This document shows positions 18,442 to 28,520 of a DNA stretch of 64,000 bases, piece after piece (positions within the stretch are counted from its first letter, which is position 1; the number at the start of each line of letters is the position of its first letter). Under the pieces are notes generated by a model. The model had not been told where the DNA came from and ran no database searches. It saw only the letters and a program-made list of their open reading frames with translations. A program made the translations under genes and the position numbers. The stretch covers positions 186,001 to 250,000 of the forward strand of contig NZ_JAAEDL010000004.1 in assembly GCF_018129005.1 (NCBI RefSeq), written 5' to 3'. Origin of the DNA: Neoroseomonas eburnea (GTDB lineage: Bacteria > Pseudomonadota > Alphaproteobacteria > Acetobacterales > Acetobacteraceae).

Positions 18442-21687
<3,246 letters not shown>

Positions 21688-21912
21688 GGTCTCAGGCCTC
21701 GGGGGAAGAAGGGGCGGCAGCGGTGCCGCCGATCATGAACTGGGCGCCGCAGCCGACCGGCCGGGCGAGGGGGAGGGCGGTGACACCCGGATCTGCGCGC
21801 CGCCAGGCGGGACCGGCAGGCCGGGGCGCCGCCTGCGCAATGCAGGACGCCGCCATGCCGGCGCGACGCGGCACCGCGCCCATCGCACGGGGCCTCGGGT
21901 CGAACCGGTCCA

Positions 21913-22218
21913 TCAGCCCTCCTTCGGCCGCGGAAACAGGAGCAGCGTGAGGAAGGCGACGGCGAAGAGAATCCCGCCCCCCAGCAGCACGCCGGCCATC
22001 GCATCGTCCACGAGGCTCGGCCGCAGGCTCCAGAAGGCCCAGAGCCCGCCGAAGGCGGCGATGGCGCCATAGGCGGCGCTGCACGTCACGAAGGGACGCA
22101 GCGCGCGCGGGCCGAAGCCGAGGCGGCGCGTCGTGATCCAGAACAGCACCACCGCCGGCAGGCCGATGATCAGCGCCGCCGCGGCGCCCTGCGCAAGCGC
22201 CTCCAGCCCTGCATACAT
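21913..22218 (-). CDS. Small three-segment membrane protein
   Basis: A 101-residue hydrophobic protein, too short for function to be read. It has three likely membrane helices at about 10-28, 43-63 and 74-96. The ATG at 22218 shares one base with the LysE stop codon (TGATG), so it is translationally coupled to the transporter and probably expressed only with it. It ends in a charged RPKEG tail. I do not recognise the family. Context suggests an accessory to the LysE-type exporter, but this is only inference. Confidence 0.7.
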   Translation of the reverse strand: MYAGLEALAQGAAAALIIGLPAVVLFWITTRRLGFGPRALRPFVTCSAAYGAIAAFGGLWAFWSLRPSLVDDAMAGVLLGGGILFAVAFLTLLLFPRPKEG

Positions 22219-22850
22219 CAGCGCCTCCCCTCGCTCGCGAGCTTCACCGCGATCAGTGCCAGCGCGGCGCCGAGGATCCAGCGCTGCGCCGCCATCCAGC
22301 CCGGCCGTGCGCCGAGAAAGCGGGCCACGCCTGCCGCCCCCAGCACCAGCGCGCCGTCGAAGAGGATCGCGACACCGATCTGCACCGCACCGAGCAAGGC
22401 CCCCTGGGTGAAGACGCTGCCGAGCGCCGGGTCGATGAAGGGCGGCAGCACCGCCATGTAGAACAGCGCGACCTTCGGGTTCAGCGCCGCCGTGGCGAAG
22501 CCGACGCCGAACAGCCGCGCCGCGGGTTCCCGCGGCATCGGCCGTGGTGCGAAGATCGGCTGCCCGCCCGGCCGCAGGCATTGCCAGGCGAGGAACATCA
22601 GATAGGCCGCACCGCCGAGCCGCAGCACGTCCCAGGCATAGGGCACGGCGAACAGCGCCGCGGTCAGCCCCGCCGCGGCGCAGAGCATGATCACCAGCGA
22701 GCCGAACTGGCAGCCGACGAGCGAAACCAGGCCCGCCCCCGTCCCCTGCGCCAGCGAACGCGAGACGAGGTAGAGCATGTTCGGCCCCGGCGTCGCCGCG
22801 AGGCCGAGGGACAGCGCGGCGAAGACCAGCAGTGTCTCGACCGGGGGCAT
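22218..22850 (-). CDS. LysE/RhtB-family exporter
   Basis: A 210-residue, roughly six-helix inner-membrane exporter of amino acids or related small metabolites. The N-terminal signature SLGLAATPGPNMLYLVSRSL and the central ALNPKVALFYMAVLPPF are typical of the family. Its start overlaps the SDR stop (TGATG) and its stop overlaps the start of the small membrane protein, so the three form one coupled unit inside the carA-carB interval. The substrate is unknown. Confidence 0.9.
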   Translation of the reverse strand: MPPVETLLVFAALSLGLAATPGPNMLYLVSRSLAQGTGAGLVSLVGCQFGSLVIMLCAAAGLTAALFAVPYAWDVLRLGGAAYLMFLAWQCLRPGGQPIFAPRPMPREPAARLFGVGFATAALNPKVALFYMAVLPPFIDPALGSVFTQGALLGAVQIGVAILFDGALVLGAAGVARFLGARPGWMAAQRWILGAALALIAVKLASEGRR

Positions 22851-23608
22851 CAGCCGTGCACCGAGAACCCGCCATCCACCGGGATGGAGACCCCGGTGAT
22901 GAAGGATGCCGCATCGCTCGCCAGGAACGCCGCCACGCCCTCGAAGTCGCGCGGATCGCCCCAGCGCCTGATCGGCGAACGGCGCAGCACGTCATCGTGC
23001 AGGCTCGCCATGTCCTGCCGCGCCTTTCGCGTCAGGTCGGTGTCGATCCAGCCGGGCAGGATGACGTTCACCGTGATGCCATCCTCCGCCCAGGCCACGG
23101 CGAGCGACTTCGTCAGCTGCACCACGCCACCCTTCGACGCGCCATAGGCGGCATGGAAGGGCAGGCCGAAGATCGACAGCATCGAGCCGTTGTTGATCAC
23201 CCGCCCCGCGCCGCCGGCCTTCAGGTACGGATGCGCCGCCTGGCTCGCGATCATGGTGCTGGTCAGGTTGGTGGCGAGCACCGTGTGCCAGTCCTCCATC
23301 CGGTACTCCTCCGGACGGCGGCGGATGTTGGTGCCGGCATTGTTCACCAGGATGTCGAGGCGGCCCATGCGCTCGGCCGTCGTCGCGACCACGGCGCGGA
23401 TCGAGGCTTCCTGCGTGACGTCCACCTCGACCGCGTCTGCGGTCGCGCCCAGCGCCTTCAGTTCGGCGACGGCGGCCGCGTTCTTCGCCGCGTTGCGCCC
23501 GGCGACCATCACGCCGGCGCCGGCCTTGGCGAGGCCGCGCGCGAAGCCGAGGCCGATGCCCCCATTGCCGCCGGTGACGAGCGCGACGCGCCCCTTCAGG
23601 TCGAACAT
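22850..23608 (-). CDS. Short-chain dehydrogenase/reductase
   Basis: A 252-residue classical SDR. The cofactor loop is TGGNGGIG (residues 12-19), NNAG is at 89-92, and the catalytic triad is Ser142, Tyr155 and Lys159 (YGASK). The close VDGGFSVHG ending and RRWGDPRDFEG resemble gluconate 5-dehydrogenase/2-deoxygluconate 3-dehydrogenase members, but the substrate is not certain. GGAAGGGAAA precedes the ATG. It starts 28 bp after carA and overlaps the LysE gene by one base (TGATG), so it is likely read from the carA promoter. Confidence 0.9.
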   Translation of the reverse strand: MFDLKGRVALVTGGNGGIGLGFARGLAKAGAGVMVAGRNAAKNAAAVAELKALGATADAVEVDVTQEASIRAVVATTAERMGRLDILVNNAGTNIRRRPEEYRMEDWHTVLATNLTSTMIASQAAHPYLKAGGAGRVINNGSMLSIFGLPFHAAYGASKGGVVQLTKSLAVAWAEDGITVNVILPGWIDTDLTRKARQDMASLHDDVLRRSPIRRWGDPRDFEGVAAFLASDAASFITGVSIPVDGGFSVHG

Positions 23609-23636
23609 GCCGTTTCCCTTCCTATCGCCGGGCGCG

Positions 23637-25016
23637 TCAGGCGCGGCCGGTCTTGGACGCCTCGATCATCTCGACGAAACGATGGAAGAGGTAGTGGCTG
23701 TCGCTCGGGCCCGGGCTGGCTTCCGGGTGGTACTGCACGGAGAAGGCCGGCCGGTCGGTCGCGGCGATGCCCTCATTCGTGCCGTCGAACAGCGAGACAT
23801 GCGTGACCTTCGCATTCGCCGGCAGGGTCTTGGGGTCCACCGCGAAGCCATGGTTCTGGCTGGTGATCTCCACCTTGCCGGTGGTCAGGTCCTTCACCGG
23901 CTGGTTCGCCCCGCGATGCCCGCGCGGCAGCTTGTAGGTCCTGGCCCCCAGCGACAGCGCCAGCAACTGGTGGCCGAGGCAAATGCCGAAGACCGGCAGC
24001 TTCGTCTCCAGCACGCCCTGGATCGCCGGGATGGCGTATTCGCCGGTCGCCGCCGGGTCGCCGGGGCCGTTGGAGAGGAACACCCCGTCCGGCTTGTGGC
24101 CGAGGATCTCCTCGGCGGTCGCGGTGGCGGGCACCACCACCACCTCGCAGCCGGCGGAGGCGAGGCAGCGCAGGATATTGCGCTTCGCCCCGTAATCCAC
24201 CGCGACGACCTTGTGCTTCGGCGCCGCCTGCCGCCCGAAGCCGGCCGGCCAGGCCCATTCCGTCTCGTCCCAGGAGAAGGTCTGGCGGCAGGCGACCTCC
24301 TTCGCGAGGTCCATCCCCTCCAGCCCCGGCCAGGCCGCCGCCTGCGCCTTCAGCGCGGCGATGTCGAAACGGCCGTCGGCGCGGTGGCAGATGACGCCGT
24401 TCGGCGCGCCGAGGTCACGGATGCGCGTCGTCAGCGCCCGCGTGTCGATGCCCGACACGCCCGGGATGCCGTACGAAACCAGCCAGTCCCGCAGATCCTT
24501 CGTCGCCCGCCAATTGGCCGGCTCGGTCACGTCCTGCTTCACGACCAGGCCGCGCGCGGCCGGCGTGATGCTTTCGATGTCCTCGATGTTCGTCCCGACA
24601 TTGCCGATATGCGGGAAGGTGAAGGTGATGACCTGCCCGGCATAGGACGGGTCGGTCAGCGTCTCCTGATACCCCGTCATGCCGGTGTTGAAGCAGATCT
24701 CGCCGACCGCGGCGGCCTCGGCGCCGAAGCCTCGGCCCCAGAAGATCGTCCCGTCGGCGAGCACCAGGCAGCCCGTGGCGCCTTCGGGAGGGGTCTCGGC
24801 AGAGGCCATGGTGGGCTCCGTCTTCTGGGTTTCGGCGGGCGCGCCGGGCAGTTCGGCAAGGGACAGGCCGGTGGCGGACAATACGGCGGGCCAGTGCTTG
24901 GCCGGGATGGCCTTCGCCTGGCGCCATTTCCGGATGGCCTCGGTGCCGACGCCGCAGCGCGCGGCGGCCGCGTCCGGTCCGCCCAGCAGGGCGATGATCT
25001 CTTCCACGGTGCGCAT
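23637..25016 (-). CDS. carA: Carbamoyl-phosphate synthase small subunit with N-terminal helix-turn-helix domain
   Basis: The glutaminase subunit of carbamoyl-phosphate synthase, which hydrolyses glutamine and channels ammonia to CarB. The conserved protein starts at Met70 (ATG 24809, good GGAG site) and is 390 aa, with the class I amidotransferase motif FGICLGHQ (Cys277 from Met70) and YHPEAS. Upstream, the same frame continues 69 codons to ATG 25016: [37 protein letters not shown]. This is a compact helix-turn-helix like YdaS/Cro. It matches my memory of a database domain named after carbamoyl-phosphate synthase and isopropylmalate proteins (carph-isopro). ATG 25016 has no clear SD, so both forms may be made. 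Confidence 0.9.
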
Positions 25017-25039
25017 GGGCGGGGTTATGCCGGGAAACC

Positions 25040-25076
25040 ATTTCCCACCGCAACCCGAATCGCTTGGGTGGGAAAT
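25040..25076. promoter_or_regulatory. Inverted repeat in the carA-yqeY divergent promoter
   Basis: Perfect 10-bp arms ATTTCCCACC (25040-25049) and GGTGGGAAAT (25067-25076), 17 bp apart, centred in the 120-bp gap between the HTH-carA start and yqeY. Each arm is extended by related A/T and C runs (GGGAAACC and TTTCC). The spacing puts the two arm centres about 27 bp apart, close to 2.5 helical turns. It is a plausible operator; the obvious candidate binder is the CarA N-terminal domain. Confidence 0.5.
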
Positions 25077-25136
25077 TTCCTCCCAGGCGGCCCGGCGCGC
25101 TATAGGACCCGCCAACCGATCGAGGAGCCCCGGCCC

Positions 25137-25598
25137 ATGTCTCTGCGCACCCGCTTCACCGAGGAACTCAAGGCCGCGATGCGCGCCGGCGACAGCGCCC
25201 GCGTCTCCACGCTGCGCATGATCACGGCCAAGCTGAAGGACACCGACATCGCCGCCCGCAAGGCGCCGACCGACCCCGGGGTGTCGGAGGAGCAGATCGT
25301 CGCCATGCTGCGCGCCATGGCGAAGTCCCGCGCCGAGAGCGTCGCCCTCTACCGCCAGGGCAACCGGGAGGAGCTCGCCGCGAAGGAGGAGGCGGAGATC
25401 GCCGTGATCGAATCCTTCCTGCCGCAGCAACTGGATGAGGCGGCCATGGCGGCGGCGATCGACGCCGCGGTGGCCGAGACCGGCGCGGCCTCCATCAAGG
25501 ATATGGGCAAGGTGATGGCGGCGCTGAAGGCGAAGCACGCCGCGGTGCTGGACATGGCCAAGGCCGGGCCGATGGTGAAGGCGCGCCTTGGCGGTTGA
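25137..25598 (+). CDS. yqeY: GatB/YqeY domain protein
   Basis: A 153-residue cytosolic protein of the YqeY family, related to the tail domain of the GatB tRNA amidotransferase subunit. ATG 25137 follows CGAGGAG. Typical stretches are [35 protein letters not shown] (here [14 protein letters not shown]) and the C-terminal [12 protein letters not shown]. It is divergent from carA. In many alphaproteobacteria yqeY and carA are neighbours of dnaG and rpoD, as here. The exact role is unknown; binding to tRNA is proposed for the family. Confidence 0.92.
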
Positions 25599-25690
25599 GG
25601 TCGCTGTTTCCGTTGTTCCGGCCCAGGCCCGCGCGGTAGTCTGACCGCGCGGGAAGGCCTCCGCGCCCTCCCGCGGGAGGGTGCGGCGTC

Positions 25691-26203
25691 ATGGCTGTCA
25701 CGGTACCTGCCCCCAATCCCCGGCCCGCGCCGGCAGGGCGCGGCGGACACGCCAGGGGTGCGACGCCGTCGCGGACATCCCGCTGGATCTACGTGGTCTT
25801 CCTCGGCGGGCTGGGCGCGCTCTTCGCCTGGCATGCCTGGTCGCAGGCGAATGCCTACTGGGCCCTCGACACCCACGGGCAGCGGGCAGAGGCCGTCATC
25901 CTCCGCTACGAGGAAGTCCGCGGCCGCCGCAGCACGAGCTGGTACCCCGTGTTCCAGTTCGCCACGCCGGAGGGGCTGCGGGTGGAGGCGACCTCCGGCG
26001 TGCCCGCCGAGCCTGCCGCATGGCCGCGCGGGCGTCGCGTGATCGTCGTCTACGAGCCGGGCAATCCCACCCATGTCCGCCCGGCCGCCGCGGTCGATGC
26101 CGGGCCCGGCGTCACGCCCTGGATCCTGGGCCTGATGGCCTTCGTGATGTTCGCCCTGGCCTCGGTCTTCCTCATCCCGGACCGGCCGAGGAAGATCCAT
26201 TGA
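25691..26203 (+). CDS. DUF3592-type membrane protein
   Basis: A 170-residue protein with two membrane helices (about 32-50 and 143-163) flanking a small beta-rich domain. That domain (GQRAEAVILRYEEVRG, TSWYPVFQFATPEG, GRRVIVVYEPGNP) has the pattern of DUF3592, in which the extracytoplasmic or cytoplasmic loop forms a barrel. The function of the family is unknown. The first 30 residues are Pro/Gly/Arg-rich and probably disordered. It is 92 bp after yqeY on the same strand. Confidence 0.8.
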   Translation: MAVTVPAPNPRPAPAGRGGHARGATPSRTSRWIYVVFLGGLGALFAWHAWSQANAYWALDTHGQRAEAVILRYEEVRGRRSTSWYPVFQFATPEGLRVEATSGVPAEPAAWPRGRRVIVVYEPGNPTHVRPAAAVDAGPGVTPWILGLMAFVMFALASVFLIPDRPRKIH

Positions 26204-26304
26204 CGCCGCCGGCGCGAAGCGCCCGGGTGCCGCGCGCGGCCCTGTCGTGGCGCCCGAACCGGCAGGCCGTGGCTGCCCGCAACCGCCCCCCGCGTCACGG
26301 AAGT

Positions 26305-26325
26305 CCAGGGGACCCGGTCCCCTGG
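26305..26325 (+). terminator. Hairpin after the DUF3592 gene
   Basis: A perfect 9-bp stem CCAGGGGAC/GTCCCCTGG with loop CCG, about 100 bp after the stop, with no T-run. A near copy (CAGGGGAC/GTCCCCTG) lies at 31241-31259, so this is also a dispersed repeat. Confidence 0.45.
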
Positions 26326-26388
26326 CGCGGGTCTCGGGGGCGGCGCCCGCGAGCGGAGCGCGAGGCGGGGCCTCGCACCCCCCCTCGC

Positions 26389-26607
26389 CTAGTTCGGCAT
26401 CTCGAGGTCTTCTGAGAGCACCACGATCTGCACCGCGTAGGAAACCTCGCCGTCCTCCGCGTCGCGATGGACGGTGCCGATGAACTCGTCGCCGACGCGG
26501 AGCTCGACGCTCGCGCCCTTGCGCTCGGGGGCCATCACGGCGATGCGGTTGTTGCCGAACAAGCGGCGGAGATGTGCCTGCACGGCGGCGCGTTCGGCCG
26601 GGGTCAT
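26389..26607 (-). CDS. DUF3126 family protein
   Basis: A 72-residue cytosolic protein. The order of blocks (AERAAVQAHLRRLFGN, then VELRVGDEFIGTVHRDAEDGE, then SYAVQIVVLSEDL) matches the small alphaproteobacterial DUF3126 family of unknown function. The fold looks like one helix followed by a short beta-sheet, with no metal or catalytic motif. The ATG at 26607 lies in a 104-bp region shared with the divergent dnaG gene, so the two may have overlapping promoters. Confidence 0.82.
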   Translation of the reverse strand: MTPAERAAVQAHLRRLFGNNRIAVMAPERKGASVELRVGDEFIGTVHRDAEDGEVSYAVQIVVLSEDLEMPN

Positions 26608-26711
26608 TGGCGTATCCTTGTCTGCGGGAAGGCGCGCTGATTAGCCGCCGTTCCGTCGCGGCGCAAATCCCGTCGCGCCTTCCTCGCGGGGAAGCTAACT
26701 AGCACCCTAGC

Positions 26712-28520
26712 ATGGCCCTCCCGCCCGCCTTCCTCGACGAGTTGCGCGCCCGCACCCCGCTGCCCGGCCTGATCGGGCGGAAGACGCGGCTGCTGAAGTC
26801 CGGCCGCAACTGGAAGGGCTGCTGCCCCTTCCACGGGGAGAAGACGCCCTCCTTCTACGTCTACGACGATCACTTCCACTGCTTCGGCTGCGGCGCGCAC
26901 GGCGATGCCGTGACCTTCGTGATGCGCAGCGAGGGCGCCTCCTTCCCTGAGGCGGTCGAACGCCTGGCGGCCGAGGCGGGGATGGAGGTGCCGAAGCCCT
27001 CCGCGCAGGAGGTGGCGCGCGAGCGTCGCGCCCGCGACCTGCACGCCGTCATGGCGGCGGCGGCCGAGGCCTATCACCGCCGCCTCTTTCTCCCCGAGGG
27101 GCGACCGGCGCTCGACTACCTGCTGCGCCGCGGGCTGAAGCAGGAGACGATCCGCGCCTTCGCCCTCGGCTGGGCGCCCGCCGGTCGCGGTGCCATCGCG
27201 GCCGACCTGCGCGGGGAGGGCGTCACCGAGGACCAGCTCATCGAAGCCGGCCTGCTCCGCCCCGGTGAGGCGGGCGACCCACCCCGGGACTTCTTCTATG
27301 CGCGGGTGATGTTCCCCATCCGGGACCGGCGCGGGCGGGTGATCGCCTTCGGCGGCCGCATCCTCGGCGACGGGCAGCCGAAATACGTCAACAGCCCGGA
27401 GACGCCGCTGTTCCGCAAGCGGCTCGGCCTCTACGGCCTGGACCTCGCACGGGAAGGGGCCTTCCGCGGCGCGCCGGTGGTCGCCGTCGAGGGCTACATG
27501 GACGTCATCGCGCTGCACCAGGCAGGGTTCGCGGGGGCGGTGGCGCCGCTGGGCACCGCGCTGACGCCCGAGCAACTGCAGGAACTCTGGCGCCTGTCGC
27601 CGGAGCCGGTGCTCTGCTTCGACGGCGATGCCGCCGGGGCGCGGGCCGCGGCGCGCGCGGCGGAGGTGGCACTGCCGCTGATCTCCACCGACCACACGCT
27701 GCGCTTCGCCACCCTGCCGGCGGGGGAGGACCCCGACACGCTGACCGTCAGGGGCGGGCCCGCGGCCTTCCAGGCGGTGCTGGACGCCGCCCGGCCGATG
27801 TCGGAGGCGCTCTATGGCCTGATCGCCGAGGGCCGCCCGGCCGCCACGCCGGAACAGCGGGCGGCGCTGCGCAACCGCCTGTCGGGCGCGGCGGCGGCGA
27901 TCACCGACAAGGCGCTGGCTGCGGAATATCGGCGAGTGTTGCTCGATCGCTTCTTCGCCGCCGGACGGCGCGGTCCCGGGGGGGGCGCGGCGGGGCGGCC
28001 GTTCGCCGCGCGCCTGGCCCGCCCGGCGATTTCCGCCGCTCCGGTGCAGGCGGAACGGGCCCGGATGCTGTTCGCCATCCTGCTGCGCCACCCGTGGCTG
28101 CTGCCCCAGGCGGAGGAGGCGATCGGGCTGCTCGACCTGCCCGATGGGCCTGCCACGCACCTGCGGGCCGCGATTCTCGCATGGCATGGAGGTGTCGAAC
28201 GGGTTGACTCCGAAGGTCTGATCGCCCACCTCGCAGACTGCGGATTGGAAGATGCGGTGGCCTGGGCCCTCGTGCCCGCCGGCCTACCCCTTGCGGCGAG
28301 GGCCGAGGCCCTGCCCGGGGAGGTCGAGGAAGGTTTCTGGCACTTCTTCCTCCGCCTGCGCGGCGAGGCGGAATTGATCGAGGACCAGCAGGAGGCCCGG
28401 CGGATCCTGGCGGAAACCAATGATCCCGCGGCACAACGCCGGCTGATCCTGCTGTCGGAGGCACTCGATGCCGTCCGTCGCGGGGAAGGGGCTGCGGGGG
28501 CGTCCGGGGACGCCGCATAG
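26712..28520 (+). CDS. dnaG: DNA primase
   Basis: A 602-residue primase that lays RNA primers at the replication fork. The CHC2 zinc finger is at the N-terminus (CCPFH with Cys38 and His41, then CFGC with Cys57 and Cys60). The core has the RNA-polymerase domain signature (FYARVMFPIRDRRGRVIAFG) and the TOPRIM segment VVAVEGYMDVIALHQAG and CFDGDAAG. The C-terminal third, which binds the replicative helicase, is Ala/Arg-rich and contains a low-complexity linker (FFAAGRRGPGGGAAGRP). rpoD follows on the same strand, as in many Proteobacteria. Confidence 0.97.
   Translation: MALPPAFLDELRARTPLPGLIGRKTRLLKSGRNWKGCCPFHGEKTPSFYVYDDHFHCFGCGAHGDAVTFVMRSEGASFPEAVERLAAEAGMEVPKPSAQEVARERRARDLHAVMAAAAEAYHRRLFLPEGRPALDYLLRRGLKQETIRAFALGWAPAGRGAIAADLRGEGVTEDQLIEAGLLRPGEAGDPPRDFFYARVMFPIRDRRGRVIAFGGRILGDGQPKYVNSPETPLFRKRLGLYGLDLAREGAFRGAPVVAVEGYMDVIALHQAGFAGAVAPLGTALTPEQLQELWRLSPEPVLCFDGDAAGARAAARAAEVALPLISTDHTLRFATLPAGEDPDTLTVRGGPAAFQAVLDAARPMSEALYGLIAEGRPAATPEQRAALRNRLSGAAAAITDKALAAEYRRVLLDRFFAAGRRGPGGGAAGRPFAARLARPAISAAPVQAERARMLFAILLRHPWLLPQAEEAIGLLDLPDGPATHLRAAILAWHGGVERVDSEGLIAHLADCGLEDAVAWALVPAGLPLAARAEALPGEVEEGFWHFFLRLRGEAELIEDQQEARRILAETNDPAAQRRLILLSEALDAVRRGEGAAGASGDAA

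Follow-up and report, generated by a model that had tools for sequence, protein, structure and literature searches.

A Cro-type helix-turn-helix domain fused to CarA and paired palindromes upstream of carA suggest autogenous control in the Acetobacteraceae

In Escherichia coli, carAB is a single operon on which many separate regulators act, and these include the trigger enzymes PepA and PyrH, i.e., enzymes that also regulate the transcription of carAB (PMC6245113). The regulating enzymes described in the available part of that review are enzymes other than CarA, whereas the locus analyzed here points to a role for CarA itself. In the same part of the review, self-control by CarA is not mentioned, and the string "autoregul" occurs 0 times. 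In the available part of a second paper, carAB is named only in the gammaproteobacterial ArgR regulon (PMC5343134). A search of the open-access literature for CarA as a DNA-binding protein revealed no report among the matches listed.

Enzymes that carry a sequence-specific DNA-binding domain in the same chain and control genes of their own pathway are represented by PutA, BirA, and NadR. These are other enzymes with other DNA-binding folds, and none is a subunit of carbamoyl-phosphate synthase (CPSase). A leaderless long form combined with an internal start is not known for PutA, BirA, or NadR. Enzymes that regulate carAB are known, as are fusions of enzymes with DNA-binding domains; the new element would be CarA itself as a putative autogenous DNA-binding regulator.

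The locus studied here lies in a stretch of 64,000 nucleotides from Neoroseomonas eburnea (the window), in which the carA product begins with a helix-turn-helix (HTH) domain. The nearest solved relatives of this domain, by sequence profile and by fold, are the Cro proteins of phages N15, Xfaso 1, and P22. Cro acts at short operators beside its own gene, an arrangement also predicted for the fusion protein, here called HTH-CarA. Unlike phage Cro, the HTH forms the N terminus of a metabolic enzyme and stays below the gathering score of P22_Cro. In the available part of a paper describing N15 Cro, contact residues were not found (PMC4997575). The HTH of the window is a member, over the cut-off, of the NCBIfam family carph-isopro (NF046037), which supplies a name without a stated function, and no paper on the term carph-isopro was found in the open-access literature searched.

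The HTH-CarA reading frame in the window and in the family

Analysis of the carA frame (Table 1) revealed a CarA part, residues 83 to 452, that scored 464.8 bits against TIGR01368 (equivalog cut-off, 307.35 bits). In an alignment of 21 sequences, C346, H430, and E432 were invariant; we take these residues to be the catalytic Cys, His, and Glu of a class I glutaminase. An earlier note on this DNA, made from its letters, had described 69 additional carA codons that encode an HTH. Both parts of this description were borne out, as the frame opens with an upstream ATG at 25016, the internal ATG at 24809 is codon 70, and residues 4 to 56 score over the NF046037 cut-off. The same domain remained below the gathering scores of Pfam families P22_Cro (PF14549; 19.5 versus 30.2 bits) and YdaS (PF15943; 18.5 versus 30.0 bits).

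Table 1. Features of the carA region of the window, with positions counted from the first letter of the window
Feature	Position	Strand	Remarks
carB	18511..21684 (= G000:C4:204511-207684, matched stretch)	-	TIGR01369; downstream of carA
carA long form, HTH-CarA	23637..25016 (stop codon included)	-	459 aa; from the translation
Internal ATG, predicted start of short CarA (390 aa)	24807..24809	-	In-frame linker ATG
GGAG, ribosome site for the internal ATG	24816..24819	-	From the sequence
Cro-like HTH domain (NF046037 carph-isopro), residues 4 to 56	24849..25007	-	64.9 bits versus curated cut-off of 38
Recognition helix, residues 25 to 34	24915..24944	-	Assigned by analogy with Cro; includes residue 33 (Q)
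Predicted -10 region GCATAAC	25024..25030	-	A at -10 position 2 in 140/155 same-geometry genomes
Predicted operator site 2 (proximal)	25032..25046	.	GGGAAATGGTTTCCC; 10/10 fixed positions; within the predicted -35/-10 spacer
Predicted -35 element TTGCGG	25048..25053	-	TTG at the same place in 138/155 same-geometry genomes
Predicted operator site 1 (distal)	25070..25084	.	GGGAGGAAATTTCCC; 9/10 fixed positions
Divergent yqeY-like gene	25137..25598	+	Frame of a long plus-strand open reading frame; 120-bp gap shared with carA

In the window, carB is positioned about 2 kb downstream of carA on the same strand. It was also found downstream of carA in five other genomes, 22 bp away in one of them (G022) and 0.85 to 2.2 kb away in the rest, and carA and carB may be carried on one transcript. 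Two genes, at 21684 to 23608, separate carA from carB in the window, compared to the 22-bp gap in G022; presumably, they encode a short-chain dehydrogenase-like protein and a LysE-like protein.

The AlphaFold2 model of the HTH contains helices at residues 4 to 11, 14 to 21, 25 to 34, and 39 to 49. Its pLDDT values are 87 to 94 in blocks of residues 1 to 50, and the core of the HTH model is confident. In the full-length HTH-CarA model, the linker is predicted to be disordered (pLDDT of <50 at residues 60 to 71). Searching for solved structures by sequence profile revealed 5w8y, an Xfaso 1/Pfl 6 hybrid (6e-4), 3bd1 (9e-4), 2hin/6on0 (0.016), and 1rzs (0.068) as matches of the HTH. Cro proteins also head the structure-match lists, with 6on0, an N15 Cro-DNA complex, in first place, and the helices superpose on Cro; the Foldseek E values of these Cro matches are weak (0.04 to 0.12), and the HTH-like folds of HEPD, MPnS, and HppE are listed as well. 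Comparison of 27 HTH sequences revealed the invariant residues G12, G13, G24, A27, R29, K30, W31, R32, P38, H41, A48, and G50, and Q33 was nearly invariant. The differences at the three codon positions of the HTH (0.22/0.12/0.455 in 86 sequences) follow the pattern of a translated protein.

To follow the fusion through the family, 299 genomes of Acetobacteraceae were searched, and CarA was present at an E value of 1e-60 or better in 284 of them. A match to NF046037 at 1e-3, counted anywhere in the genome, was obtained in 283 of the 299 genomes (278 over the cut-off), and the domain was matched in 100 of 102 sampled genera. The 5' region of carA was taken from 228 of the 284 CarA-bearing genomes, mostly best-scoring first and not at random, and 56 were left out; carA fragments at contig ends (e.g., in G026, G146, and G178) do not belong to the sample. 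The HTH is present at carA in 225 of the 228 genomes, including G035, where the HTH stands on a separate contig piece (L325) and was scored as positive; it is absent from G210, G029, and G116. At the 225 loci, no stop codon occurs in the first 150 codons from the HTH start (two of the loci do not reach this length), and CarA stands in the HTH reading frame at 223, i.e., the catalytic and the DNA-binding-type domains share one open frame. The exceptions are G088, with a frame shift, and G035, with a contig end. The earlier note had let its reading depend on whether relatives keep the upstream frame as protein, and they do.

In G088 (L271), the HTH and CarA frames are offset by one within the linker, which is probably an assembly error because the palindromes described below are intact. 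The linker of G035 (L267 and L325) contains a tandem nine-residue repeat, TSSRAPEGG, and this is the point where the two contigs break. HTH and CarA as split genes, a possibility raised by profile matches with an internal stop, were dropped, as the retrieved loci have no stop within 150 codons of the HTH start.

Paired palindromes, predicted promoter, and internal start

The earlier note had pointed to a 10-bp inverted repeat in front of carA. This repeat, ATTTCCCACC/GGTGGGAAAT, is exact: its arms at 25040 to 25049 and 25067 to 25076 are 17 nt apart and 100% complementary. As an operator unit, it was ruled out, because relatives keep two 15-bp palindromes, often without the outer match, and the repeat represents the two inner, facing halves of these palindromes. 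The conserved motif is a paired 15-bp GGGAA-N5-TTCCC. It was picked after the upstream sequences of relatives had been viewed; upstream DNA was first read in about 40 relatives, from 56 loci taken, and the rest (14 on the opposite strand and one without flanking DNA) was read afterwards. In the window, the centers of sites 1 and 2 are 38 bp apart.

In the 225 genomes, the best palindrome in the 150 bp upstream of carA matched 10/10 fixed positions in 189 genomes, 9 in 21, 8 in 14, and 7 in 1, so that a palindrome of at least 9/10 is present in 210 of 225. Of 4,500 shuffled sequences, 0 reached 10/10 and 11 reached 9/10. Two or more sites of at least 8/10 were found in 203 of 225 genomes (13 of 4,500 shuffles), and two sites of at least 9/10 were found in 170 (0 of 4,500 shuffles), counts that overstate the evidence because related genomes do not provide independent upstream sequences; the shuffles preserve single bases, not dinucleotides. 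In 225 coding stretches used as a control, the best score never exceeded 8, and no perfect palindrome occurred. Two perfect sites are present in 93 of 225 genomes, a single site of at least 8/10 is present in 21, and none at 8/10 is present in one. The spacing of the sites is 37 to 40 bp in 162 of the 203 genomes with two or more sites.

A palindrome of at least 9/10 is centered 20 to 24 bp before the HTH ATG in 155 of 225 genomes, which we refer to as the common geometry. In these 155 genomes, the near palindrome occupies the 17-nt spacer between the predicted -35 and -10 elements, and the distance from the -10 region to the ATG is 6 to 7 nt in 143. In the window, this distance is 8 nt with a 17-nt spacer or 7 nt with an 18-nt spacer. 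This promoter geometry places the mRNA start on or beside the A of the ATG, and a leaderless mRNA is therefore predicted, which in the window would start at or beside 25016. A ribosome site precedes the HTH ATG in 4 of the 155 common-geometry genomes; with a wider motif, the count is 9 of 155, compared to 38 of 70 in the other geometry. Since 70 of 225 genomes have this other geometry, the leaderless design is not universal. In those genomes (e.g., at L140, L149, L150, and L168), the sites are displaced from the usual position and often lie further upstream, where the HTH then follows a leader with a ribosome site.

A generic promoter scan, in which 9 of 12 consensus bases were required, flagged no promoter at carA. 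In Gluconobacter oxydans, a member of the same family, 62 leaderless mRNAs have been described, and neither carA nor carbamoyl occurs in the main text of that mRNA-start study, as far as this text was available (PMC5756330).

The observation of the earlier note on translation signals was reproduced: GGAG precedes the internal ATG, and nothing similar precedes the ATG at 25016. An in-frame linker ATG with a ribosome site is present in 124 of the 221 genomes with a readable linker and missing in 97, so that two forms would be common but not universal. A ribosome site was found before 124 of 186 in-frame linker ATGs, before 6 of 117 out-of-frame ATGs, and before 508 of 5,647 other codons. Genomes of the leaderless class have the internal start more often (100 of 153) than the remaining genomes do (24 of 68). 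These counts suggest that a short CarA without the HTH is made from the internal start alongside the long form.

Occurrence of the palindromes and covariation with the HTH

Searching 299 whole genomes for the exact palindrome pair revealed it in 112 genomes, at one place in each, and the reversed pattern in 0 of 299. In all 92 of these genomes whose carA locus had been taken, the pair lies no more than 300 bp ahead of the HTH start; the other 20 of the 112 are outside the sample. The genome of the window is not among the 112, because its site 1 has one change. Single palindromes in seven genomes of the genus were as frequent as in the control (24 versus 25), and a wider regulon was rejected on this basis, yet all seven genomes have one at carA. 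An extra site in G292 (L326) gave no lead from the open frames there.

In the genomes without the HTH, the best palindrome within 300 bp of carA scored 8/10 in G210 (at 90 bp), 7/10 in G029, and 7/10 in G116; G210 also has a 9/10 palindrome 741 bp upstream, beyond the range applied to the others. At nine carA loci of other or unplaced lineages, the best palindrome within 260 bp scored 6 to 7/10. Absence of the HTH thus goes with absence of the predicted operator from the gene's own promoter, as judged from three losses, which are few, and from the nine loci of the other lineages. Within genus g31, G210 lacks the HTH, and the five other sampled members retain HTH and sites. The three HTH-less genomes (G210 [L321], G029 [L323], and G116 [L324]) are small, with 1.7 to 2.1 Mb.

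The domain family also occurs apart from CarA. The genome of the window contains two more NF046037 members, which exceed the cut-off only slightly (41.8 and 38.7 bits); they are short open frames (L360 and L363) that are not positioned at CarA and have no palindromes. Matches beyond the family were considered as further CarA fusions and rejected: of 30 loci, 28 were read, and only those of the family genomes G000 and G040 are fusions, while the other 26 are not. Two class-level matches (L346 and L347) were unmatched by the HTH model and left out, and 28 further class-level matches had no locus assigned; two of these (L360 and L363 of G000) were read, and neither is a fusion. Outside the family (L327 to L356), NF046037 matches the start of other proteins, mostly of about 400 to 570 aa (FGGIRPMAxKL...VTTVQGWKxRG), without palindromes; these proteins resemble the mitofilin-like proteins of alphaproteobacteria. 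Close relatives of the HTH as separate proteins numbered 10 among 13 candidates in a search whose length limits exclude full-length fusions. The three named ones among them are all marked as partial, and one has a CPSase domain. Matches of the HTH to PHROGs were weak (best, 3.7e-4).

In some genera, the palindrome reads CGGAA-N5-TTCCG (C-type) in place of GGGAA-N5-TTCCC (G-type). When the HTH columns are compared, mutual information with this outer operator base is highest at residue 33. C-type sites (CGGAA-N5-TTCCG or a close variant) accompany S or A at position 33 in all nine genomes with either residue, and Q33 is present in 187 of 190 G-type genomes. The covariation is one-sided, with C-type sites also in 15 of 211 Q33 genomes. 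According to a tree of 89 full-length CarA proteins, S/A33 has three origins, and the operator changed alongside; a mean of 2.5 of 3 pairs were concordant and never opposite, which is not significant (sign test, p 0.25). A tree of 216 short pieces gave only 1 supported pair. The covariation of residue 33 is support for the HTH reading the sites, not proof.

A putative autogenous regulator and its alternatives

From these comparisons, we consider it probable that HTH-CarA is an autogenous transcription factor that binds the two palindromes and represses its own promoter, with a short CarA made from the internal start. The Cro-type domain, as dimers, would bind the two 15-bp palindromes before its own gene. 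Because the -35/-10 spacer is taken up by the near palindrome, HTH-CarA bound there should block RNA polymerase, and carA would be repressed, as would carB where it is cotranscribed. For roughly two thirds of the genomes studied, the mRNA is predicted to start at the A of the HTH ATG, and the long form would be translated from it without a leader. The second start, with its ribosome site in the disordered linker (more than half of the genomes), would yield ordinary CarA without the HTH. The long form would then act as repressor and enzyme, and the short form would act as enzyme. The comparative evidence points to the self-control and the two forms suggested in the earlier note, through the conserved frame and the internal start; the repeat on which that suggestion had been built consists of parts of two putative operators.

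Alternatively, some other, unlinked regulator of carA might have the palindromes as its operator, with the HTH-like domain acting as a structural or protein-contact module. The metabolic enzymes HEPD, MPnS, and HppE, which appear with HTH-like domains in the same structure list, and the C-type operators that coexist with an unchanged Q33 would fit this explanation. It is nevertheless improbable, given that the three HTH-less genomes also lack sites near carA, that the exact pair occurs once per genome and at carA where this was checked (92 of 112), that the HTH column that best tracks the operator sits in the recognition helix, and that R29, K30, W31, and R32 are invariant there and Q33 nearly so. 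Translation from the internal ATG only, with the upstream frame untranslated, would explain why the ribosome site is found at the internal ATG and not at the upstream one. However, no ribosome site is expected at the upstream ATG if the mRNA starts there, as the promoter geometry predicts, the extension is conserved as protein with codon positions that vary as in a translated protein, and an internal ATG with a ribosome site is missing from 97 of 221 genomes; we regard this explanation as very improbable.

The sites might also control the divergent gene at 25137 to 25598, which we take to be yqeY-like, or HTH-CarA might be an activator and not a repressor. A divergent yqeY homologue is present in 194 of 225 genomes and shares the gap with carA here, and the distal site is centered 61 bp ahead of the predicted mRNA start, a position around which activators often bind. 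But sites of at least 9/10 are kept in 28 of the 31 genomes without yqeY in the upstream DNA examined (less than 400 bp in 17 of the 31), which indicates that the sites go with carA, and the near site lies within the -35/-10 spacer, the typical position of a repressor. Control of yqeY or activation is, on balance, quite improbable. Inverted repeats near a gene might function at the RNA level, forming a leader hairpin or an attenuator, but the common geometry places both palindromes upstream of the predicted mRNA start, no Rfam family reached its gathering score in 22000 to 27000, and no terminator-like site was detected in 24700 to 25300, so that an RNA function is scarcely credible.

Autogenous repression by HTH-CarA could be carried one step further by analogy, although we think this rather unlikely: the assembled CPSase might serve as the switch, with its oligomeric state reporting arginine and pyrimidine supply to carAB transcription without a separate regulator. 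According to the available part of the carAB review, E. coli CPSase is an alpha-beta pair with UMP and an (alpha-beta)4 assembly with ornithine, Mg-ATP, and potassium (PMC6245113). A CPSase tetramer would present four HTHs, matching the two palindromes with their four half-sites. Leaderless versus ordinary initiation would set how much long CarA is made relative to short CarA, and this ratio would tune the number of HTHs per complex.

A large family seems to have given CarA itself a Cro-type DNA-binding domain together with its own operators. If true, this would provide a function for NF046037, a database domain without one, and would define a regulon of apparently one site. The family offers a natural series of changes in the recognition helix and the operator. 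The two forms predicted from one mRNA, of which the long one would be leaderless and the short one would use a ribosome site, would represent a testable link between the mode of translation and repression.
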